Origin: Bolinopsis microptera
Lineage: Eukaryota; Ctenophora; Tentaculata; Lobata; Bolinopsidae
DNA: 64,000 nt
Reading direction: 5' to 3'
Assembly (NCBI RefSeq): GCF_026151205.1
Contig: NC_087082.1
Span: 3,500,001 to 3,564,000, forward strand
Below the pieces are notes generated by a model, which had not been told where the DNA came from, did no database searches, and saw only the letters and a list, made by a program, of their open reading frames with translations. Below are positions 12,134-60,800 of the stretch, piece after piece. A program made the translations under genes and the position numbers. How positions within the stretch are numbered: the first letter of the stretch is position 1; each line of letters opens with the position of its first letter.

Positions 12134-16260
<4,127 letters not shown>

Positions 16261-29600: not shown

Positions 29601-32600
29601 CCGTGACCCAGGCCCTTTCGGGACCGTTACCCAGGCCCTTTCGGGACTGTGACCCAGGCCCTTTTGGAACTCATACCTAGGCCACGTGACCCAGTTACCA
29701 CGTGACCCAGGCCCTTTCGGGACCCTGACCCAGGCCCTTTCGCGACCGTGACCCAGGCCCTTTCGGGACCGTTACCCAGGCCCTTTCGGGACCGTGACCC
29801 ATGCCCTTTCGGGACCGTGAACCAGGCCGTTATGGAACCCTCGTCGTTACCGTACTTCGATTATAGTGTATCAGTTATCATTCGTACCTTCACCACATCA
29901 TCTGGTTACTCTATATCACATCACAACGTCATGGACCGTTTCCTAAAGAAACGAACAGCTACAGACAGTGACCCATCATCAAGCTCACCACACAAGAAAC
30001 ATATTTGCGATCACGCATGGGATCTGATCGACTCTATCAAGAGGCGTCTTCAAATAACTGTCTCCTGATCTCTACCAGATCAAGTCACTGTTCTCAGATA
30101 ACTGAATCTCAATATAGGTTCAATCATGGTCTTAGTAAAGAACTACACCCTCAGTAACACAATACACATAAACAGACCTATTTTTGATAAGAGCGGCGGT
30201 TATACGTTTAGAATTTCCAAAGTCTTTGAGAAAATGCAAAAGAAAACCGCACAATTCCCGCACAAATTTCGAAAAAATCGCCGCACATTTGCCGCATAAT
30301 TGGTAAAAATTTACCGCACCTTACCGCACATTTTACCTTTATAGTCGGGTGCGGTACCGCATAATTTCGATTTTTTTACCGCACCTAATATGTGCCTCTG
30401 ATTTTGGGATTCTTGTTTTTAAGGCTGTTTTGTTCCACCTAAGTATGAGTCTAACTTAATACTATTCAGGAGGTTCTCTAAAGATGATATTTTATTCGAA
30501 GAATTCAAGAGCCTAGCTTAACTGTGTATGATTCGCCTCTCCAAACAAATCTACAGGAACCTCTAGTGTTACACTTACCAGAGGGGGGAGCTTGTGACAT
30601 GAGGTCCTCTACAGGAACCTCTAGTGTTACACTAACCAGAGGGGGGAGCTTGTGACACGAGGTCCTCTACAGGAACCTCGAGTGTTACACTTACAAGACG
30701 GGGGAGCTTGTGACATGAGGTCCTCTACAGGAACCTCTAGTGTTACACTTACCAGAGGGGGGAGCTTGTGACACGAGGTCCTCTACAGGAACCTCTAGTG
30801 TTACACTTACCAGAGGGGGGAGCTTGTGACACGAGGTCCTCTACAAGAACCTCTAGTGTTACACTTACCAGAGAAGGAGGTTGTGACACGAGGTCCTCTA
30901 CAAGAACCTCTAGTGTTACACTTACCAGAGAAGGAGGTTGTGACACGAGGTCCTCTACAGGAACCTCTAGTGTTACACTTACCAGAGGGGGGAGCTTGTG
31001 ACACGAGGTCCTCTACAGGAACCTCTAGTGTTACACTTACCAGACGGGGGAGCTTGTGAGACGAGGTCCTCTACAGGAACCTCTAGTGTTACACTTACAA
31101 GACGGGGGAGCTTGTGAGACGAGGTCCTCTACAGGAACCTCTAGTGTTACACTAACCAGAGGGGGGAGCTTGTGACACGAGGTCCTCTACAGGAACCTCG
31201 AGTGTTACACTTACAAGACGGGGGAGCTTGTGACATGAGGTCCTCTACAGGAACCTCTAGTATTACACTTACCAGAGGGGGGAGCTTGTGACACGAGGTC
31301 CTCTACAGGAACCTCTAGTGTTACACTTACCAGAGGGGGGAGCTTGTGACACGAGGTCCTCTACAGGAACCTCTAGTGTTACACTTACCAGAGAAGGAGG
31401 TTGTGACACGAGGTCCTCTACAGGAACCTCTAGTGTTACACTTACCAGAGAAGGAGGTTGTGACATGAGGTCCTCTACAGGAACCTCAAGTGTTACACTT
31501 ACCAGAGGGGGGAGCTTGTGACACGAGGTCCTCTACAAGAACCTCTAGTGTTACACTTACCAGAGGGGGGAGGTTGTGACACGAGGTCCTCTACAGGAAC
31601 CTCTAGTGTTACACTTACCAGAGGGGGGAGCTTGTGACATGAGGTCCTCTACAGGAACCTCTAATGTTACACTTACCAGAGAAGGAGGTTGTGACACGAG
31701 GTCCTCTACAGGAACCTCTAGTGTTACACTTACCAGAGGGGGGAGCTTGTGACACGAGGTCCTCTACAAGAACCTCTAGTGTTACACTTACCAGAGGGGG
31801 GAGCTTGTGACACGAGGTCCTCTACAGGAACCTCTAGTGTTACACTTACCAGAGAAGGAGGTTGTGACACGAGGTCCTCTACAGGAACCTCTAGTGTTAC
31901 ACTTACCAGAGGGGGAGCGTGTGACATGAGGTCCTCTACAGGAACCTCTAGTGTTACACTTACCAGAGAAGGAGGTTGTGACACGAGGTCCTCTACAAGA
32001 ACCTCTAGTGTTACACTTACCAGAGAAGGAGGTTGTGACACGAGGTCCTCTACAGGAACCTCTAGTGTTACACTTACCAGAGGGGGAGCGTGTGACATGA
32101 GGTCCTCTACAGGAACCTCTAGTGTTACACTTACCAGAGAAGGAGGTTGTGACACGAGGTCCTCTACAGGAACCTCTAGTGTTACACTTACCAGAGAAGG
32201 AGGTTGTGACACGAGGTCCTCTACAGGAACCTCTAGTGTTACACTTACCAGAGGGGGGAGCTTGTGACATGAGGTCCTCTACAGGAACTTCTAGTGTTAC
32301 ACTTACCAGAGGGGGAGCTTGTGACATGAGGTCCTCTACAGGAACCTCTAGTGTTAGACTTACCAGTTGTGACACGAGGTCCTCTACAGGAACCTCTAGT
32401 GTTAGACTTACCAGTTGTGACACGAGGTCCTCTACAGGAACCTCTAGTGTTACACTTACAAGACGGGGGAGCTTGTGAAATGAGGTCCTCTACAGGAACC
32501 TCTAGTATTACACTTACCAGAGGGGGGAGCTTGTGACACGAGGTCCTCTACAGGAACCTCTAGTGTTACACTTACCAGAGGGGGGAGCTTGTGACACGAG

Positions 32601-38600: not shown

Positions 38601-41600
38601 ACTGGTAAAGCAATTACTTGGCTTAATTTAGGTTATCTGGACAAGTTCACGCCATTTTGTTTTATCAAATATGGCTTATAGTTATATATTTAATTAGTAC
38701 TCCCTTTATTTTTGAGGGGCTCAACAGTCCACTACTTGACTGGTAAAGCAATTACTTGGCTTAATTTAGGTTTAAATCTGGACAAGTTCACGCCATTTTG
38801 TTTTATCAAATATGGCTTATATATTTAATTAGTACTCCCTTTATCTTTGAGGGGCTCCACAGTCCACTACTGTCCTCCGACTAGGGATACTTACTTGTGG
38901 TCCTTTGCACCATGTTACCATGTCGTTTGTTTCATTGTTTTAATCATTAATTATCTATCAGCATCTTTGACTAACAACAAAACAATTTTAGGAATTTCTT
39001 TGCTGAGCAAAAAGACCGGACTCAATTATTCAGCGCCAACAACTATGCAAACAAACAACAAAACACTCTATGGAATCCACAATAACTCTGAGCGGTATTC
39101 CCTGTTGACGTGGACAATAACTGTCCTAATATCATCAGTAATCGGAGACAGCATCATTCTGGTCACCAGCATCAAGTACCACGCAATTAAACTGAAGGAG
39201 GTTATCGTGGTGGTCATACAGCACCTTGCAGTATGTGATTTACTGATAGCTATCTTCATGGTGCTCCCTACAACTATAGCACTGATCGCTGATGATTGGG
39301 CTATGGGTGATATTCTGGGACATGTTGAGGTACATATCCCCAACACATGTTACCCAGCTACCAGACTGCTGACTTGTGCCATGACAATCCTGAAGCTGCT
39401 ACATTTGAAGTATCCCCTCAGAACGACTGGCTGGTCGAGTAGGTTTGGACACAAGATTTGTGGAGTAATGTGGATACTGGTGCTTTGTATCTATGCGCCC
39501 TTTGTGGTGGCCTTTATCTTCTGTTCAAAAGACACCAATACGGTCCAGTTTGATTACGTGTCATACGCGTGCTTCTACAGTTACTTCTCCGCAGACGCCC
39601 CAGAATGGTTGAAATACTACAACTTGATTTACATAAGTCTTGCAATCATAATCCCATGTATAATACTTCTAGTTACATCTGTGCTTATCTTGGTTCTAGC
39701 GAAGATCTCAGCAACCCGTCACGGAGGAACACTAAGATGGGAGGGTGTCATTACAGCACTGCTAACTGTGGGGGTCCTGTTTGTTTCCTTTCTGCCTTAT
39801 TGTGCCACCTTCATGGCATGGAACCTGGGACAGTTCAACACCACAGTCTATCGAGCAACACACTTCCTGAACTTTCTCAATATCATGGCTAACTTCTACG
39901 TGTACTCGCTGACTGTGGGAAGCTTTAGAAGCTTCTTAAAACTGAAAATATCAAAACTTCTCCGCCAAGTTTTACCATCTACAAGTATAACGCCTGCTTG
40001 TAGGTCACAGAATCAGTTTCCTTCGAGTCCAGCAGTTTTGAGGCTGGGGCTACATCCTCCTCTTTCTACAGGAGGAAGACAAGAGCAGCTTTCTGTAAAG
40101 GACTAGGATAATGGGAAAATGCGCACTATTTGTATATCAGCGTAAATATTATGATTCGTTACAAACGAATACTCTTACATTATCTCAACAGGATTACTTG
40201 TTGAAATCAGTGAAATAAATTTGATAGTTTCTTAAAAACAGGATTACTTGTTGAAATCAGTGAAATAAATTTGATAGTTTTTGGTAAAAATTGTCAAAAA
40301 AGTGATTAAGTAATATGTGAACGACCCCTTAACATTCACTTTCAAAAGCTCCCGCTATCCCCAATATTCTACCTGATATATTGAGGGCACGTTTTGGGTC
40401 GAAACCAGGCGGGAACTCAACTTCAGGTAGTCGTCGTTTCTGTTCATCACAGGCCATGATCCAATGATATGACACTGCTTTTACGCCTTGTTTTATCGCT
40501 TGTTCTATGTTGGATTCTTTCATCTCCTTCGTACCTGGGGACAGATACGGGTTACCCACAATAACAACACATTCCATGCATTCCATCGAGAAAAAGATAT
40601 GTCCCGAATGGTGAAAATATGGAAGATTTGGGACACAGGAAAATTGTATCTTTTAATTAGGTGATTGTTGAACAATTCTTAGTTAAACAGATCTCAACTT
40701 TTTTCCACTTTTCGAAGATTGATAAAATAACTATAAAATAGATAAATAAATTAATGAAATAAAATGTCAGTAAGTAAAGCTCATACTGCATATGACGTGA
40801 GTACATGATCTGTCTATGTAAGTTTTGATAACAGCTCCGTTACGTCGAGCTAACGATTTCACTCCGACACTGGAACTTCTACTTGCTTGTTCTGCTTCAC
40901 TACTAGTGTCACCTGAATAGAAATATCATATTTCGGCTTCTTTGACGCCGTTCATCTAAATCACCTCCCTCAGATTAATGCATACTATCAATAAAGGTAG
41001 GTTATTGTTATTTTCGTTCCAAAAACTGAACAAATCATTCAAGAGAGAAGAGACTTTAGCGCACTTTACGGCATTCCTATTTCCTGGCAGTACTTTTTTA
41101 CTAAAATACCTATCACCCCTCACTATTTCTCATGTCACGTTTAAAACATTAGGTATCTAGATAAATTAAGAATATCGTTAGTCCTTACCCCGCCAAGCAC
41201 TTTAGAAGGTGGAGCGGTTCTCTTCATGGCGTTAGCAATGTTCCTCTTATAAACAGTGTTCAGACTACTGATGGTGGTGTCGTGGACGGGAGCTGGTGAT
41301 TCTAACGCTTCCATCGCTGCTTCTACCTAGGTCACGTAGGAGTCACAAACATTAGGTCACGTGGGAGTCACAGACATTAGGTCACGTGGGAGTCACAGAC
41401 TTTAGGTCACGTGGGAGTCACAGACATTAGGTCACGTGGGAGTCACAAACATTAAGTCACGTAGGAGTCACAGACTTTAGGTCACGTGGGAGTCACAAAC
41501 GTTAGGTCACGTGGGGTCACAAACATTAGGTCACGTGGGAGTCACAAACGTTAGGTCACGTGGGGTCACAAACATTAGGTCACGTGGGAGTCACAAACGT

Positions 41601-48821: not shown

Positions 48822-51800
48822 TTACTTCTTCCTAATTTTTGACCTATTCTCATCAGTTTCAGAGTCTCTTTCCCTCACACCATTAGCCTTTGTCTTGGGT
48901 GAGACGTCCTGCTTTACCTTCTTCTCTGCGCTCTTCCTCTCTCCCTCCTTCTTCAAATCATCATCCCTCCTCCGCTTCTTCTCCGAATCCGTCTCATCCC
49001 TCCGTTTCACACTATCCGCTCGTTTGTCCTTACGCGCGGGTGAACTGTTGCGGGACGCGCTATTTTCTGTGCTCTTCTTTTCCACGTGATGGAATTTCTC
49101 CTCAGCAATGAACGTATTACGACGAGAGTTGAGCTGGGCAGAGTATCCCATAGCAAGCGCATACAGATCTGGTCGCACTGTCTTCTCCTCCTCCTTCACC
49201 TTCAGAATGCGCTTCTCCAGCGCCTGCGCCAGATTGAGCACAACAGGAAACTCCGGGAGGATCTTATTAGGACCGTCAGTCCGTTCCTGATCTGCGAGTA
49301 GTCCTTGGAGTCGAAACAGAACACCATGGCCTTCGTCAGCTTAAAGTGCCACTTGCAACACACATGTCGGAAATTTTCGTAGTCTAGATACTTTTCTATT
49401 TTCTTAGCACCGTCGCTGTTCGGGTCTCCGCGTATGATGTGGACGAAACCGGGGGATTTCCCACATTCCTTCTCGTAAAGAGCCTTGTCTTTGTGCCATC
49501 TTGAGATTCCTTTAAGAGTCTCACAAAGGAACCTTCCGTACCTTGTGATGGAGAAATATCCTCGTAAATTAGCGGGTAGATTGGACACAAATCATTTCAA
49601 CATGTAAAATAACAACTAATTAATTAATTAATAGTCTAAATTTAATAGATATTCAGTAGTAACTAGAGAATGTAATACTTCATATTCTTACCTGCTAGCC
49701 TCATTATCAGTGCAGTTAGTGACAATGTGGGACACATCTGAGAAGATCCTATCAAAGTAGATGAGAGTTGAAAAGTTTGAAGCCTGCATCTTGTGACATA
49801 ACTCTACAAACTTGGCGCAGTATATGGCGTCACTAGCTGTGAACATGGACCGCTGGATTATGCACACTTGCAGAAACTGAAAGAGAGGTTATTATTTAAA
49901 ATACACTTATTATCCACTGTCCTGACCTGCCTCAGATGACAGTGTGACAGAAACTGAGCTATAATGGACCAGTACATGGCAGTATCTCTTAATACTTATA
50001 CAATATACAAGACCCACTAGATCCAATGTGCCAATTAATTTGACCTCTAATCGACCTATCATTATAAACAGTGTCTTTAACTCTAATCTCGAGAACACAA
50101 TATCTAGTACCTGCATAATAGCATCTACTTTGGTAGAATTGGTGCTCGCAAACCAAATATCTTTCTCGGACTCTAACCGGGCCAAGACCAACTTGTGGTT
50201 GACTTCCTGAGACTTGTGCTCTTCTTTTAGCTTGCTTATCAAATCCTTGTGTCGTTCTACCTCCTTATCTTTCCTTCGTTGAGCTAAGTCTTCGTTATCG
50301 TTTACCTAGTAAATTCAACAAATAGGGAAGCTGTTCTTCAAAATGATCGATAAAGAAAAAGTTTTTAAATACATTATTTTCGATTGCTTCGCTGTTTCAG
50401 TGGTAATAATTAGAAATATTATTAATAGCTATTGCAGTTGTGTTGGTAACGGTACTTTTATTTTCACTAAGAATAAGTTGTATAATTGAATTCATATCAC
50501 CTTCGATGTTATTACTTTATTAGTTAACAAATCGCTCTACAAAGTCGTGAAATTATCGTATAAATTGGTTAATGATAGCAGGAGTTTTGTCGGATCGCGA
50601 GATCGTACCTGTTTTATGGCGCCCTCTATCCGTGCAATTTCACCAGTATATCTATTTGAGGGTAAGATGATGTCGGGTGAAGCCAGAGACCAGAATGTGG
50701 CAAATAGTCGGGGTGAAATCTTGTCCCACACTTTAGGAGGATACAACAACTTTACCTGTAATCAATTACATTTAACTAGGAGGATACAACAGCTTTACCG
50801 AGGTATAACATTTTGATAACATATAACTAGGGGAATTCATAATTTCTAGTGGACGATGGAATTAGAATAGTAACAAAGTCACTCCAAAGTATACTCCCAG
50901 CACTAGAATTAATTTCCAATTATTTGACGTAAATTAAAACCCCGAATAGCCGGACCAAAATAAATTAGGCGACAAAGGGGCCCGACAACGCGACATAATG
51001 CAATTAAGGTTATATACGTAGGCCCTCTAAATTATAGAGCCTCACCTGGTCGCTGAGTTGAGATATGACTTTTTCTGAAGCATCAATGTAGGGCTGTGGT
51101 TCATCTGGGGAGCACTTACTTCCACACTCGACCCTTATCTGAGGTTTTATTAGTTTAGTTGAATACTTTCTAAAATGTCTGAGCACGAAAGATGCCGCAA
51201 TATGTATTTTATATATTGACTGCATTATTTCCAATATGAATATGGTTGTTTCCTTTGTATCCCCCCTTTTGTATGTAATTGTGTAAAATTTAATTTAATA
51301 AAATTGATAACGTAGTGACCAGGAGGTGACCGGGATTCCCGGTTCCGGGAATCCCGGTACCGGGATTGGCAATTTTGAGCTATCCCGGTCCCGGTCCCGG
51401 TCCCGGTCAATCACTCAAATTTGCCGGGATTTTGACCGGGATCTTTTACATAATTTCATTCACTGTGATTTTAAGTTTTTCCTTTCATTCATTGTGAATT
51501 TCATCTTTAAACATCCTCTGAGCCAAATACAACAATGTTTAAAATTGCTAAACAAGTTTGAGTAATAAATTATGATCATGAATTAACCAGTAATCGACCG
51601 GAATTCACCCTGATTTTTTTGTGAAACTTGTTTTCGAGATAGCAGTTGACCAACAAACTAGGACCAGTGACCAAACTTTTGAGGGGGTCCCGGACCCCAA
51701 CCGCCAAACGGTGCCCGCGGGGCAGCCACGCCCATATTTGGTCCAAATTAGGCCCAATTTAGCCAAATACCCTGAACATTCCCAAAACCCCAGATTTTAG

Positions 51801-54800
51801 GTGCTCTACTAGTAGCTAGTAGTCCCCTGAACTCGTATATGAATTTTCATCAAGATTGGACAAAAAATGGCTGAGTTATGAGCCAAAAACCATATGCCCA
51901 TATTTGGGCATACGCAGCAATATTGGTCGATTTTGGCCCATAAATTGCATTGGTCAAATATCAATATTTTTGAATAAAACCCCCCCCCCCCCCCCCCCTT
52001 AATGCATTCATTACAAGGGGTGACTTTCATAATTCTAAACCATGATTGACCAGCTGACGACGATTAACACATGTTTATTGAAAGCTTCTACAAGTTAACT
52101 CATCGTATCTCTTATATGTTTCTAACCCAACTCCACTCAGCATGATGACCTCGCAAATGACCTCGGATGTTCGGTCATTATCACGCACCTACACGTGAGA
52201 GCCAAGTGATGATAGCCGAACATTCGAGATCATTTGCGCGGCTGGAGGAGTAATAGGTATGACTTCAACATTACATTATAACTTAATTACCTCGCTCTGT
52301 GGAAACAGGGACAAAAGGATTTCGCGGCGATTTTGGCCAAATTTCGCGATACCGCGAAATTTAACAGGCTATACATTAAACTATACATAAAATTTGTCGC
52401 GGAGAATGGGAAATTTCGCGATTTCGTACATGCCGCGAAATCCTTTTGTCCCTGTGTGGAAAGGTCAGAAAATACAAAAGTTGCTGCTTTTGCATTTTAT
52501 CTTCAAAATGTTGAACGTATTATCTCATTGCAAATGTGTCAGTTAGCAAAGACGGGGGAGGGAGGGAGAATTCAGCGACAAATAAACCTAATATTCGCCA
52601 ATAAGTTATGCCAATTATAAGATAATAGATATAATATAATAGCAAATTTGATGGAAAACCATATTTTAGGATTACCTAAAAGATGATTGATAGTTGTAAT
52701 CAAAATTTCTAGTAAACCCCCGCCCCCCCCCCCCCCCCCCCCCCCTCCTCCCCACTCCAGAAAATGATGACTTAACATGAAATTTTACACCACCGAGTAC
52801 AATTTTATTTCTCAACAGGGTTAGTGTCTCTGCTAGAGCTTTGTAATAATCGTCAGGCGTTCAGATGTTGCAGTAGCTTATATACTTTAGTTTGTTTGCA
52901 CATCTGCATCAGGACCTTGTGGCAACCTGGTTATCACATGATGGTCAGTCGATGCACTCTGTGGAGATACTCCGGTTATTTGCATCATTCAAACCTCATA
53001 ATATGTCTTAGTACTATTGATCAATTTTTAAAGTGAAATTCCAAAAATGCTGATCCAACTAGTTTGTTATTTTGTTAAAACCCTGTTAGGTGAATGTCTT
53101 TTTAAGCTAAGAATAGTTTCAAAAAATGAGGGGGGGGGGGGGGGGGGGGGGCAACCATATTAAAGTATATTAAAATGTAGGGTTTTTTCCAATTTTGACC
53201 CGGGATATACTTTAATATGGTTGCCCCCCCCCCCCCCCCCCCCCCCAATTATATGGAATGTCTTTTTTATGCTAGTTAAAACTCAACCATTCATAAGCAA
53301 TGACCATGGTAAAAAGGGTAAAAACTTTGAAGCCACCCCCTCGAAGTAAAGAAGCATTAGAGAAAGAAAGTTTCGATCGTGGACTGTTGAACCATGCCAA
53401 AGATGTGGACATCCTCGATAAAAGAACCCAACTGTTGCGCAATATATGGAGTAGCTACAAAATGAAAAGAAGCATAGAAAAAGCTTCCATTCTTTTAGTT
53501 GGCAGTTCGGGCGTAGGAAAGTCCAGTACCATCAACCATCTCTTTGGTCTTTCAGAGAAAGAATCCATAAACTTTGCTAAGACCAGCGATTCAAAATCCG
53601 AAACTAGAACAACAACCGAATTCGTGATTGAAGTTGATTCCCCTGAGCGATATGAAACGTCTGGTCTTAGGCTAGGTCTGGTCGATACACCAGGATTTAA
53701 TGATACAGATGGGACAAAACAGGATGCATGCAACTTTTATTCGATAAAAGAGTTTTACAAAAAACACATGAAAGGAAGTATGCCTAACCTTGTTTTAATC
53801 TTGATTCAAGCAACTGACACCAGGATCCAAGGTGAAAACAGTAACCTAGCTAAATCGCTGAGATGCTTAAAGTCTTTGAAGCTTATAGATACTAAGTTTC
53901 CTAATGTGGTCGCTGTATTGACTTGGAGTACTGCACTGGGTGAAAAGAAGACAAAATACACCAAAAATATCTCCAGAAAGAAGGAGATAGTAAAAGATAC
54001 CATCTTCGAATTTCTGAACGTCCAAGTTCCAGTAGTTGCCTTGGAAAATGACTTGGAAGATCTTGATAAAGATGGGGATTTCACAGTTTTGCCAGACGGT
54101 ACAAGGCAAGTTAAGAACTTGTACAAGATTTGTCAAGAGGTCCTGAAAAAAAGTGGTGACTTCTACGGTCATCTTATTTTCAATGAAGCCTTCCAACTTG
54201 GCAAGAAGAACGTCACCGTAGGAAACAAGACAGAAGCTAAGAATGCACAATCCAGCAAATTATCCAAAGACGAAACCGAATTCTTCGAATTCTTCTCACA
54301 CGCTCTCGCTGGGGGTACTCCGGATCCGCTTGTACAGGAAGCTACGAATTTCATCAAAGATGAAAACATAATTGAAAATGAGAATGTTGCTGAGATTCAA
54401 GCTCTTGTAGGGTCTCTGAAAAAGATGGGTGTTCAAGAGTTGAGCGAGTTGAATGTCATTTCAACGAAAGGAATACAGTTAAAGCATCCTGAGGATGTTT
54501 CCTGTACTGGAAAAAAGTTTCTGAAGAACATAGGTGTCAAAGACACCACTTATCATATTGGCCAGGATTCGGCAAGTGTCATTGCCCAGGGATATAATAT
54601 TCTCAACGACACTGTCGTACCTAGCCAGATATTTTCCTACAAAGAAAAGGATACAAAGTATGGCATAGCTATTCCAGGGTTGGCGCAACTGAAGCCGGTC
54701 AATGAAACACAGACATTCATGTTTTCATATGACACCAAGACAAAACTAATTCACGACAGATTGGCTCATCTAAATGTCTCCCTAAACGTGGACGTCAACA

Positions 54801-57800
54801 AATTTGCTTTCTCGGGCAAAGCTGGTTTCAATCTCTCCTCCTCGACTGAAACAGATTCACATTCCCAAGAAATATCCTTTTATATGGAAGAGAGGCTTTT
54901 TGAACTAAGCATGGGCAATTTCAAAGATCCGGGGATAGTTTTGACAAAAGATTTTACTGATGCTGTCAAAGAACTTCCTGGATCTTTTAACGTTGAAGAT
55001 GCCAGTGGTAGATCGAAGTTTCAACGATTCTTTGATCGCTGGGGTCATTTCGTTGTTACCAAAGTAATTGGAGGTGGTGCCGTAGAACTGCGAATTAACA
55101 CTTCCTCATTTGGAAGCCAGTTTCGTGACACCAATGCAATCAAAGGATCCTTGGTTGCATCTTTTAGCACTGGCTTTTTTGACACCGAGGCTTCTGTTGA
55201 AGGCAGTGATGAATCAAGAAAAACATTGAGCGCACGACAAGTTTTTGAATCTACTACCGTGAAATGGAGCGGGGGAGCGAGAGAGTTTCACAAGAAAAGC
55301 ACTGTTGGTGACGAGCATAAAATGGACATATGGAGGAACTCACTCATAACAAGTCCTACAATGTTGACTACCGACATGTACCTTGAGCCTATTTCAACTC
55401 TAATCCAGTTAGCAGATCCAAGTAAATATGATGCTGTTTATGAGAGCCTCAAAGATTTTTTGGGGGGAAATTTTGATGTGGTCGCAAAGAGGCAAAAAGA
55501 CGCTAAGGAAGCTGAAAGGAAGCGCAAAGAGGATGAGGCTGAAGCCGAAAGAAAACGAAAGGAAGATGAGGCTAACACAAGGGCAGAAGCAACTGAAGAA
55601 ACGCCCTCTAACGATGGCGGCTCCTCTTGCATTGCTCCAGATTCAAACGCAGTTGTGATGAGGAACGGGGTAGAAATGACCCTAAAACTTAAGGATCTTG
55701 TTATAGGAGATCTGATTCTTTGCTATGACATTGGAAATAAAATCCCAACTTTTACTAAGCTTATTCTTTCTGTCCACGCCAACTTCCACACACCAACGAA
55801 ATATTTCCATATTAAGCTGGAAGATGGCTCTGGCATTAAACTAACAGGGGAGCATCTGATTCTAGTTGGAGAAGGTCACAAAGCAGTCATGGCAAGAGAT
55901 GTCGAAGTGGGCGACTTGCTTTACAAGAGAACAGCAGGATTTTTGAAGGTTCAGAGAATTACCCAAGTCACAGAAAAGGGCTTGTGCTGCCCAATTACGG
56001 AAGTAGGGAACATCATGGTAGATGGTATTTTAGCAAGCTGCTATGCTAACATATCAGACTTCTGTGTGTTTGGAAGAAGCTTCATCTCTGCACAAACTCT
56101 AGGACGAATCACAATGGCACCCTTTACAGCATACAGAAAGATTTCGAAAGACAAAGGAGGGAAGATTGTTGAATCTGATAAGTTTCACCCATATGTTGGT
56201 TTCCTCTTCAAGGCTTTACGCCCCTTCATAAAGTACTAGTTATGGTTATTGACATTAACAAATGACTGATGACTGTTTATTATTGCAATCATTTGAAAAA
56301 ATAGAAGACAATTATTTTGATTTTGCGGACAATTCTTTTGATTTTTCGGGTGCCATTGTTATTCAATTTTGTTATGAAAGGAATAACAATGCAAACTTAA
56401 CAGAATTTTGTCCTGCCGTTTTAATTTTAGTGAGTAACTTACTCTAATACTCTGGTGATTTTTATTTCTAGAAAAGCTTCTTCGTCTTTTTGTCTATGTA
56501 GTGTGTGCAATGAGCATGCTTTCCAAAATCTTTACTCCAGTATGGCTGTTACATTTATAAATTACAACTATAATCAATAATTTTACTGCATGATTTCCAA
56601 TTCGGTCGTTTTATTTGTGTGAATAACAATAGTTAATAATAATAGAAGTGTGAAATTTTATTTAATCAAAGTTATATCGAAATAACCATGATCCAAACGT
56701 ATTTGAAATTTTGCAATAAGAATTAGTGCAATAAGGAAGGATATTAAGATGAAGTTGAATTTGTTATAATATATGTGTTATAAGATTATTGATTGTCATA
56801 TATATATATATAATGTATATTAGTACAGCTTATGTAAGAAGGTGAAGAAGAAAGAACAGGAGATCCAACGAGAAAGGAACGACAGAAGGTGTGTTGAAGT
56901 AGCAGTGTCTAAACTCTAAGTAGTAGATGTACTAGCCTGTGAAGTGGATAGTTCGGGAATCGGGGAACACCGGTAAGTCCTAGTCTAGCTTTCATCTCTT
57001 ATATAGTTTCATGATAGTTGTAGGTTTATATATTTCTTATGTTACAGATGATGCACATTTATTGTATTACTTATAAATCATATTTCAGGTGTTTTTTAGT
57101 ATTGTAGTGTAAGTGTAAAGGAGAGAAGAAATAGGAACAACTAGTAGGAGTCTAAGCAGTAAGCATCAAGATAATAAAAGAGAGTAACCTAGAAGAACAA
57201 GGAAGTGTATTTTGTAGGGGGTGGTGATCATAATATTTTACCTGAAGTCTCATATGTGCTAGAGAAGACTTTTGAAGCAGTGGATGGAGGACTGTAACTT
57301 TATTGGCGGTTGCTACCATAATTTCGTTATAAAAATCACAATTTGGTTATAGAAATCAGATTTAAGGGTGGACCGTGGTTGTGACTTCTCTTGCCCATGA
57401 ATCAGTGAATCGTAGAGAAGAAAACAATTTATATGTTATAGAAGAAAACGAAAGTAATAATAATATATAATATATATTATAATAATAATATAACTGGTTA
57501 AAATTAATTAAAAAACAAACAAATGATGTCATCCTCTCGTCAACTGAAAAACTGTTGTATATGTACACAATTTAAAAATTATTATTAGCGCTCTATCATA
57601 ATCAGTGCAGGTATAAAACAAATTGCTTGTTAGCAGTTCATGTAATTTAAATTTAAATTTTAAAATCCCTGTAACATCCCTGGGCTTCATAGGTCCTCGA
57701 ACGGATCCTGTTCCGGTAAACATAGTTTTAATTAGTGATATATTTTAGGAAGTAAAGACTTTTAGTTCAGGTATTATTTAGTGATATTCTAGTGTAGTAG

Positions 57801-60800
57801 TTTTAGTTTATTGTGGAAATCGGGTGCAGGGTCTAGGGAGGTTAGTAGAAGAGGTCAGTTGAATGTTTTATATTCTAGTGTTACTTTATTAAAACAAACT
57901 GTTTCAGTTTAATTTATTATAATTCCGTGTTTTGTTAATTTGTATTAACATCCCCTTTATTAGTGTATTCATTTTAAAGGTTATAAATAGGTTGTAACAG
58001 AATTTGTAAGGATCACCTGATCACTGAGCTTGGTTCGGAGAAGGAAGAAAGCGCTGTCTGCTTGGAGATGGTACATGGTCGACAGTTCCTCAAAAGAGGG
58101 TAATGTCTTCAGGCTCTGGTTGTTTGTTGGGTTTGTGGTGAGAAACTGTCCAAGTTGCGTGAATGTGTCTTGGCATTGGTCGTACAGTCGGGCAGTCAGC
58201 TTAATGTGCCGTTCCTCATCTAAAGCAGAATTTCGTTATCAACGGTCTAAAAAAACTCTTTAAAAATGTGCTTTTCCGCGACATCTTAAGTAAATATTCA
58301 TAACTCTCTTGCGACTAAATATCGAAATTGGGAAAGTTTGTGATTGGAACTCACTTCCAAAAACAATGGAATGTCTCTGTTGGCTGGCTAGTACACACAG
58401 CGGTAACCAGATATCGTTCAACCCCAATGATTCTTGTAGTCGCTGATTACTCCGCTCTGCATGCCTATAGTAATGTCTACTGGATGTCATGTCTTTTGTT
58501 AAACAATCAGTTACTAATTTTATAGAAAATTTACCTAATCTTGTGGACGGTAATGAATTTATAAAATGATAATTTACCGGATAGGGGTGAAAAATCCTGC
58601 CTCTGCCAACAACACGGGACCCCCGCAAACTGCTTCTAACTGTGATTCGGTTACCTCTTCTGATATCTCTATACCACTCATTCTCTGAATTACCTTAAAC
58701 GAACCAGTGTTAACTTAATATCCAATGTTCTTATGAAACTAAATTTTAAACAGAATCTACGGCTTCATTCAAGCATCATACTCCAACGGAAAAAAAATCT
58801 AAAATCAGCCAGTCTATTAAAGAACTGTTAAGTAAATTGAGCATAACCTCTTTCAAAATGAGAAGATCGGTGCTTTTATTTGCTTTCAGCTGGTTGACGA
58901 TGTACTGAAGTAATCCAGACAGTTCAATGTTGTACTTTTTGTAGATGTGACCGCAGAATGTCGCCAGTACCTGGAAATGATAGATGGTGGTTGTGAGGCT
59001 GAAATGGATGTTATGGTGATCACAATTCATGCAGGAGTGACGGTTGCCAACTGACGTTAAGCCGCCTTTTAGAGTCAGAGTCTCACATGTGCGCGTCACT
59101 CTATCGCTAGTTTCCGATGACAAATTCGATCGTTAGCACAATGATACAACTTTCGCGCGTGCCCCGAGGTCCTGAAATTTTGCGACCGTACGAAGTGTCC
59201 GAAATTTCCGCTGAAAGCCGCACCTGAAACCACCATGCGATGTTTGTGTCTTCTTCCTTCTGTTTTGCTTTTTCTGGATCCGATAGAGCTTCAATAATAC
59301 AGTAGGATAAGACATCTAAACTGAGCAACCCTAGATACCTGAAGAATACACCTCGTTACGTAATGAAACCTGGTCGGAAAATATTTTTAAAAACCCCAAA
59401 CTTAATCGCAAATAAATGCACGATGATGATAATAAAAAGATAAAGCAAATACGTTTCCGAACGAAAGTCTTACTTGAGAGCATTAACAATAGGTATTATA
59501 AGATTATCGTATCGTTGTATCTGGAAGAGGATCTGGTCGAATATAACAGCTGGATTACAGTGGGCCACCCTCCCTATCTGCCGACCAAACGGCTTTACAT
59601 TTTCTTTAGTAAGTCGCTTAAGGATGTACCTACAAAAATGGGTTAAGTTGGAATAACAGTAAGTCTGATCAATTTAATTCGGCGAGTTGAACATTTTAGG
59701 TCCATGTGAGAACTCATTTCAATGGTAAAATCAGAAGCTGAAATAATTATCTTTCAACTAAGTTAAAAAGATAGCAAACCGCGATGTGTGAATAGTTTCT
59801 GCTTTAGTGACCATTAAAAGGGGATTCTTAGCATAGGACACATTCTTCCACTTGGCGTACAGTCGGTAACGAATGTGATAAGGGAAATGCTGCATGTACT
59901 CCCTGATAAATAATATTATTATTAATTTGTTTAGGTTTTCGTCCACTGATAATTAACTCTGCTAACTGCATGCCTCAATATTCTTAATATGGTAACCAAG
60001 TGCTCACGGTAAATTGATTTTTAAATCAGAAAGAACTCTCAAATCTATTACATTAAAGCAAATTAATTGTACTGAAATTATGCAAACCAGATGAGGGCCG
60101 TGAAGTTATAGTTGAAGTTCATCATAGATAGGGATGGTAGGATGACATCGCTCGTTGTCGTCATTATTTGCCTGAAAAATATTTACTTGCGTGAAGCTAC
60201 AACCAGAAGTATTTATAACATTTCATCGAAATGTTCATCACTGGAATTAACCAGCATGCATAGACAATTAAAATTTCGATTTCAGGCGTTCGTACAGCAG
60301 GGCTAATCTTATAGGACCTGACATGTTGACTATAAGTATTATATATAAAATAGGGCTAATGAACGTAATCTTGACAAGTGAGGATGGTCTTGACCTCGAT
60401 CAGTCGATTATCGTACTACTAGTACATATAATATAATGAGCACTATACAAATACCTGTAGAAAGTTCTAGAATTTCGAGATTACGCTCTAATCATTATAA
60501 TATGCCAATATTTACCCAGCAAGAGTGTGGCTGCAAATATCTGCCTTGTTTTCCTTGATAAACAAGTTGAAAAGTCGGAGGATCTTGGTGAAGAGGACGG
60601 GGGAGTTGGAGAGGTAAGGTCCGAGTCGGAACAGAGGTGTCAGCACCATGTCACTTAAATCCTCCCAGCAACTCACCTGTAGTTCAATGTTCAGTTCTAG
60701 GAAACTTACTAATGATCTTAACGATTGATACTTTGATAGAGGATAATTACTACAGTAGCATACAAAATAAATGTTTTTAAATGGAAAAACCTCTGTAGAT

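Follow-up and report, generated by a model that had tools for sequence, protein, structure and literature searches.

Proteins that join an AIG1-type GTPase to a Hint domain of the Hedgehog type have been described from several organisms. GmGIN1 of Glomus combines an AIG1-like GTPase with a Hog module and has no signal peptide (PMC2362128), four sequences from Acropora millepora carry AIG1 and a C-terminal Hint domain (PMC3723955), Biomphalaria possesses AIG proteins with Hint, while no AIG gene of this snail encodes a signal peptide (PMC7053062), and CARD-AIG1-HINT proteins are present in the lancelet and in some fungi (PMC12373286), as stated in the available text of these four papers. The gene analyzed here, from Bolinopsis microptera, places a further module between the GTPase and Hint. 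It is located in a window of 64,000 nucleotides (the whole stretch of DNA that was analyzed; C11:3500001-3564000) from a 264.65-Mb genome of 232 contigs, and it encodes a 979-residue protein with GTPase, MACPF and Hint domains. We propose that this GTPase-MACPF protein resides in the cytosol and makes its own membrane anchor through Hint self-cleavage at Ser776/Cys777 and transfer of a lipid, a reading that strikes us as somewhat better than an even bet on the strength of sequence comparisons.

The earlier note on this DNA had read the three domains in one uninterrupted frame, and all three exceed their Pfam cut-offs, while the structures predicted for the modules have folds that agree with the domain calls. 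The Hedgehog-type Hint/Hog profile PF01079 scores 85.4 bits over residues 777-941 (curated cut-off 29.7), and the AIG1 profile scores 31.7 bits (cut-off 27), with MMR_HSR1 and RsgA_GTPase scoring higher and Septin close. Membership in the MACPF family is seen both in the Pfam profile and in the fold. The canonical MACPF signature is Y/W-G-T/S-H-F/Y-x6-GG; the window protein has RWGHF-x6-GG, in which H, F and GG fit and G takes the T/S position. Similarly, the canonical G4 specificity motif TKxD/TRxD of the GTPase is replaced by LTWST, and an Asp is found at this site in just one of 24 rows (the row that keeps TRAD), so that the nucleotide specificity of the GTPase is uncertain. Collectively, these data confirm that the three-module GTPase-MACPF-Hint protein is real and is encoded by one intact open reading frame (ORF).

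No signal peptide is visible in the window protein, the best 12-residue hydropathy within its first 45 residues being 0.32, and the protein is consequently probably cytosolic, as had been supposed. Its MACPF fold could also suggest that the protein is secreted and forms pores, with the Hint tail taking part in its maturation on the way out of the cell, and ctenophores and cnidarians do use secreted armaments. We consider this quite improbable in view of the missing signal peptide, of the GTPase that leads the protein, and of the CaaX boxes in relatives (see below), which are a device of cytosolic enzymes.

The same domain order was sought in relatives. A protein database search recovered 42 of them, of which 18 have GTPase, MACPF and Hint among their listed Pfam domains, at identities of 23-94%. 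Another 18 (P0025-P0042, 538-614 amino acids) have MACPF and Hint and no listed GTPase, and one might argue from them that the modules belong to separate mRNAs, or that the long frame is an assembly artefact. However, 12 of these 18 short relatives are found on a contig of the same listed size as one that bears a GTPase ORF, which fits a reading of the two ORFs as exons of one gene with an intron between them. Together with the 18 relatives in which one ORF holds all three domains, and with an intact paralog in the same genome, this leaves separate genes with next to no probability.

Among the named relatives are P0015 from Convolutriloba macropyga, a MACPF-Hint protein whose listed sequence begins within the GTPase region, P0024 from Dendronephthya gigantea, and P0037 from Paramuricea clavata, which is annotated as 'sonic hedgehog, partial'. 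A profile search, of whose 134 matches the best 120 were considered, added the Xenia proteins P0044, P0047 and P0052, a second Dendronephthya protein (P0046), and a GTPase-MACPF protein from the copepod Tigriopus californicus (P0056). A third protein search, mostly with Hint-less relatives as queries, gave 23 matches and no new member. An origin outside the eukaryotes was considered and set aside: 50 matches to two short peptide patterns in viral contigs and 114 matches to one such pattern in prokaryotic genome contigs contained no relative, both being weak negatives. Four proteins (P0014, P0016, P0021 and P0023), probably of octocoral origin, have an extra N-terminal domain, and P0014 and P0016 have two GTPase copies each. 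The extra domain is reminiscent of TRADD-N, but Pfam gave no match for it in P0014.

Our proposal on membrane anchoring draws on the C-terminal tails, which are swapped among the relatives. A TR motif closes the MACPF helix across the family (of 51 rows, 44 have the T and 47 the R), and three kinds of tail follow it. Of the 51 rows in a maximum-likelihood tree built on the MACPF region (without P0020, P0043, P0047, P0053 and all shorter proteins), 38 have Hint, three a CaaX box and three a C-terminal hydrophobic helix. The CaaX boxes are those of P0048 (CLIL), P0050 (CSIL) and P0056 (CILL), all of which lack Hint; judged from composition, a strict box (C-[ILVS]-[ILV]-L) would occur by chance in 9.4e-5 of proteins, and a lenient one in 8.5e-4. 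The membrane helices belong to P0024, P0044 and P0046, likewise devoid of Hint, with a best 19-residue hydropathy of 2.48-2.68; this value is at most 1.97 in the remaining 21 of the 24 proteins checked. The distance from TR to the first Cys of Hint is 12-17 residues in 34 of the 38 Hint rows (13 residues in 17 of them; the other four have no TR in range), and the corresponding distances to the Cys of the CaaX boxes are 14, 16 and 12 residues. On the tree, the tail types need three changes, a count that leaves out seven rows with other or cut-off ends, and 28 of the 48 inner branches are starred.

CaaX boxes and tail helices serve as membrane anchors of cytosolic proteins. The Hint module sits at the place of these anchors with matching spacing, and in Hedgehog it leaves a sterol on the last residue ahead of Cys1; the most convincing interpretation is therefore a lipid anchor that the protein makes itself. 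The earlier note had offered two outcomes of Hint cleavage, release or lipidation of the GTPase-MACPF part, and the tails that stand in relatives at the place of Hint favor the second. In four further proteins (P0014, P0016, P0021 and P0022), the sequence past the Hint tail ends with a C at -4; as CaaX boxes these are unconvincing, and cleavage would remove them, so that they were not counted.

The Hint module itself looks active. Its alignment comprises 38 rows. P0012 was left out, its ORF stopping short within Hint; in a separate alignment, this protein has Cys1 and a His at the position of the base. The catalytic residues that the earlier note had picked out, namely Cys777, TxxH and SCY, are all present and are conserved in the relatives, Cys1 and the His of TxxH in each of the 38 rows. 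The general-base site is occupied by His in 33 rows, by Asp in four (P0008, P0009, P0010 and P0015) and by Leu in one (P0003). A Hint that is dead or purely structural, and never cleaves, could find some backing in this Leu and in an inactive-looking third Hint-like ORF of the same genome that lacks Cys1 and TxxH; given the invariance of both residues in all 38 rows, we hold it to be improbable. The closest solved fold to the modeled Hint domain is 6tyy, the D46H mutant of Hedgehog, and the natural His of the family is the same swap as that engineered in Hedgehog, where D303H keeps structure and activity and broadens sterol tolerance according to the available text of PMC9163320. Protein splicing has been proposed for the AIG1-Hint proteins of corals, the Hint domain being said in the accessible part of PMC3723955 to imply it. 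For the window protein we regard splicing as hardly credible: the intein profile reaches 19.1 bits, under its Pfam cut-off of 35.8, and SCY is followed by a tail of the sterol recognition region (SRR) type.

This tail is modeled, in a prediction restricted to the Hog part (mean predicted local distance difference test score, pLDDT, 85.5), with helices at residues 931-950 and 964-972 after Hint. A helix-loop-helix is the shape given for the SRR, and an HPR motif is tied to cholesterolysis, in the portions of PMC7242414 and PMC7906309 at our disposal. The HPR motif is complete in 24 of the 38 Hint rows, and H and Y of an H-x-Y motif are retained in 35. Hence, the family seems capable of using an alcohol that resembles a sterol.

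Within the genome of the window, an intact paralog of 1060 residues is found on another contig (C1; L002 1492-4674), and a GTPase-only partial copy of 327 residues (L002 162-1145) stands directly upstream of it in tandem, with a ratio of nonsynonymous to synonymous divergence (dN/dS) of 0.30 over 326 shared codons. Between the window gene and the intact paralog, dN amounts to 0.16 in the GTPase, 0.32 in MACPF, 0.30 in Hint and 0.37 in the tail, while dS is at least 1.95 or saturated, the tail value of 3.4 being near saturation. With dN far below dS in every module, all modules are under purifying selection. A Hint profile search of this genome, done exon by exon, found three places. The paralog on C1 scores 104 bits and the window gene 89 bits; the third, at 31.5 bits, is a degenerate ORF on C13. 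This ORF (C13:6310417-6311370; L009 4346-5443, minus strand) lacks Cys1 and TxxH, carries an insert of about 130 residues, and is apparently inactive. Elsewhere on the same contig (C13:14694608-14706224), there is a group of clustered copies of the GTPase-MACPF(-Hint) gene that are interrupted by many stops and have apparently decayed. The Hedge domain profile (PF01085) has no match in the window protein, whose N-terminal part is GTPase-MACPF, and none in the genome; as control genomes gave no match either, its genome-wide absence is not proven. Hint may thus persist in this animal without any Hedgehog ligand.

Several observations weigh against lipid transfer as we propose it. Seven of the 13 Hint-less tree rows have neither a CaaX box nor a membrane helix; several of these look like cut-off ORFs, while P0052 (a Xenia model) does not. 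Where a membrane helix is present, it begins 19-26 residues past TR, away from the place of the Cys. The CaaX boxes occupy two branches, that of P0056 being very long, and the tree program warned of long branches meeting. To these points, one has to add the Leu of P0003 at the base site and the low confidence of the modeled tail, with a pLDDT below 50 in the SRR-like loop and of just 50-60 in the second helix. Hedgehog is processed in the secretory pathway, so that the reaction in the cytosol is unproven. Hedgehog has Gly at residue -1 before Cys1; in the GTPase-MACPF-Hint family, Gly is found in only nine of the 38 rows, next to Ser in eight and other residues in 21. Moreover, in the clade of the window protein plus P0015 (12 rows), only P of the HPR motif is kept; H has given way to R, K, W or N, and none of the 12 retains R. 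The window protein has P941 and an HPY at residues 963-965, and lacks H and R of the motif. With the HPR motif eroded to this degree, the adduct in the window clade may not be cholesterol itself.

The residues at -1 and the loss of the sterol-linked H and R in the window clade would also suit a Hint domain that cleaves by hydrolysis or thiolysis and transfers no lipid, either freeing the GTPase-MACPF part or removing an inhibitory tail. Indeed, sterol-independent thiolysis and spontaneous hydrolysis are reported for Hedgehog domains in the available part of PMC13060885. A pure protease, however, would need neither a retained tail nor a place equivalent to CaaX, and the tail past Hint has been retained, both by the H-x-Y count and by a dN well under its dS, and CaaX boxes do occur at the same place in relatives. 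Lipid-free cleavage is disfavored by these considerations, and we see it as unlikely, although as a contender of some weight.

The data lend themselves to a model of self-made membrane anchoring, each step of which is deduced from the domains, the conserved catalytic residues, selection and the tail swap. The protein would be synthesized in the cytosol, where Hint and its tail would fold against a membrane. Hint would shift the Ser776-Cys777 peptide bond to a thioester, and this thioester would be attacked by a lipid alcohol that His826 activates and the C-terminal tail binds, most probably a sterol or a similar compound. The Hint part (residues 777-979) would depart and leave GTPase-MACPF esterified at a new C-terminus 15 residues past TR, the ester lipid standing in for the prenyl group or the tail helix of some relatives. 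GTP-dependent pairing of the Toc34/AIG1-type GTPase might then control MACPF assembly at internal membranes. A role in cell-autonomous defense is plausible by analogy with what is known of the GIMAP and MACPF families. Cleavage, lipid transfer, the nature of the lipid, control by GTP and the defense role are all inferred. Extended to the family, the model would define a self-sterylating class of cytosolic proteins in which the Hedgehog module is an enzyme-free lipid anchor, interchangeable in evolution with CaaX boxes and tail-anchor helices. In the animals concerned, which perhaps have no Hedgehog ligand, it would hold a perforin-like effector under GTP control at internal membranes. We advance this broader thesis tentatively, our confidence in it staying somewhat short of even.

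The features of the gene are compiled in Table 1.

Table 1. Features of the GTPase-MACPF-Hint gene, with coordinates counted from the first nucleotide of the window
Feature	Residues	Coordinates	Strand	Remarks
Single-exon ORF: GTPase - linker - MACPF - helix - Hint - SRR-like tail	979 in total	53300..56239	+	Start region common to relatives
GTPase domain, Toc34/AIG1/septin type	about 55-300	53462..54199	+	
G1/Walker A, GSSGVGKS	68-75	53501..53524	+	K74 in 24/24 lettered rows
G3, DTPG	129-132	53684..53695	+	G132 in 24/24 lettered rows, D129 in 24/25
MACPF domain	about 418-725	54551..55474	+	
MACPF signature-like WGHF-x6-GG	581-592	55040..55075	+	G582, H583, F584, G591 and G592 nearly invariant, 43 rows
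Long charged helix with repeats	726-756	55475..55567	+	DSSP on structure model
Conserved NTR motif, reference point for the C-terminal anchor	759-761	55574..55582	+	T in 44/51, R in 47/51 aligned rows, gaps scored as misses
Predicted self-cleavage junction	Ser776 / Cys777	55625..55630	+	Cys1 in 38/38 Hint-bearing rows
Hint domain	777-916	55628..56047	+	
His at Hedgehog general-base site (D303/D46)	826	55775..55777	+	Alignment to 6tyy/1at0
TxxH block	849-852	55844..55855	+	H852 in 38/38; site 849 has T in 14 rows and S in 24
SCY block	913-915	56036..56044	+	S in 38/38, C in 37/38, Y in 37/38
SRR-like (also adduct recognition region, ARR) tail: helix, loop, helix	917-979	56048..56236	+	Hog-only model

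An inverted repeat resembling a miniature inverted-repeat transposable element (53117-53258; 54-nucleotide arms that are 91% complementary, poly-G/poly-C tracts and a 34-nucleotide spacer) stops about 40 bases ahead of the start codon, and a further C tract is found at 52717-52757. Upstream of the gene, an exon of a THOC2/Tho2 gene (Pfam, 5.7e-27) is encoded on the minus strand at 49202-49588. The ORFs at 48822-49238 and 58260-58625 have no Pfam match. On the plus strand, an ORF at 386-1183 with a weak GIY-YIG match below the cut-off is probably the end of a Penelope-like retroelement, and a single-exon ORF of 419 residues at 38847-40106 looks, by eye, like a seven-helix receptor but has no Pfam hit at E 0.01. 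There is also a coding-like minisatellite at 31730-32423, in which both strands are open, and a long CT/GA microsatellite at 14759-15307. Rfam has no match in the window. Elsewhere in the genome, exons of ionotropic glutamate receptors (iGluRs) are numerous (32 profile matches); they lie on C3, C6, C8, C12 and other contigs, with several long single-exon frames. One iGluR ligand-binding domain used as query gave 51 matches in this genome, and the closest are 72-75% identical to the PDB entry 'ML032222a iGluR', which we take to be from Mnemiopsis leidyi and which would fit a ctenophore host; of four other iGluR ORFs compared with PDB, one has ML032222a first, and three have mammalian kainate receptors first.

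If the proposal is true, a cytosolic family that swaps Hint with CaaX boxes and helices would make Hint a general, self-acting membrane anchor, and this could help to explain why Hint is found on AIG1-type GTPases of fungi, corals, molluscs and lancelets. The family supplies natural His-for-Asp catalytic bases, a ready test of Hint chemistry, and it offers a case of a single intracellular protein in which a MACPF fold would act together with GTPase control.

With respect to precedent, the statement in the earlier note that no family with such an order of domains has been described needs to be narrowed. AIG1 with a C-terminal Hint domain was already published, while a MACPF domain between the two has no match in the literature searched. 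Neither the GTPase-MACPF-Hint order nor the tail swap was found there; the search covered articles and not their supplements, and a survey of cnidarian GIMAPs could describe related architectures. MACPF together with 'Hint domain' and hedgehog was likewise not found in the papers searched, and MACPF is absent from the searched text of PMC8195603, PMC7159879 and PMC3482391. MACPF and AIG1 are mentioned together in PMC12373286 alone among these papers, in its available text as separate enriched domains. We conclude that GTPase-Hint proteins have precedents, and that the literature searched offers none for GTPase-MACPF-Hint or for the tail swap. In the accessible text of PMC7242414, covalent ligation of cholesterol is called singular to Hedgehog proteins.

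When compared with the AIG1/GIMAP-Hint proteins, the window protein shares the AIG1-type GTPase and, behind it, the C-terminal Hedgehog-type Hint, and it differs in the MACPF domain and helix between them. In the available portions of the papers on those proteins, the role of Hint is given as splicing or proteolysis or is not named, and a lipid anchor akin to CaaX boxes or tail helices does not appear. In comparison with the Hog module of Hedgehog (Hint plus SRR), the window protein has His in place of the Asp base, an eroded HPR motif, and a GTPase-MACPF cargo instead of the Hedge ligand. It differs from the MACPF/perforin family (perforin, Mp2Ba1, TgPLP1) in having no visible signal peptide, a GTPase in front and a degenerate signature, and from the Toc34/Toc33 and GIMAP GTPases in the replacement of the G4 motif TKxD by LTWST.

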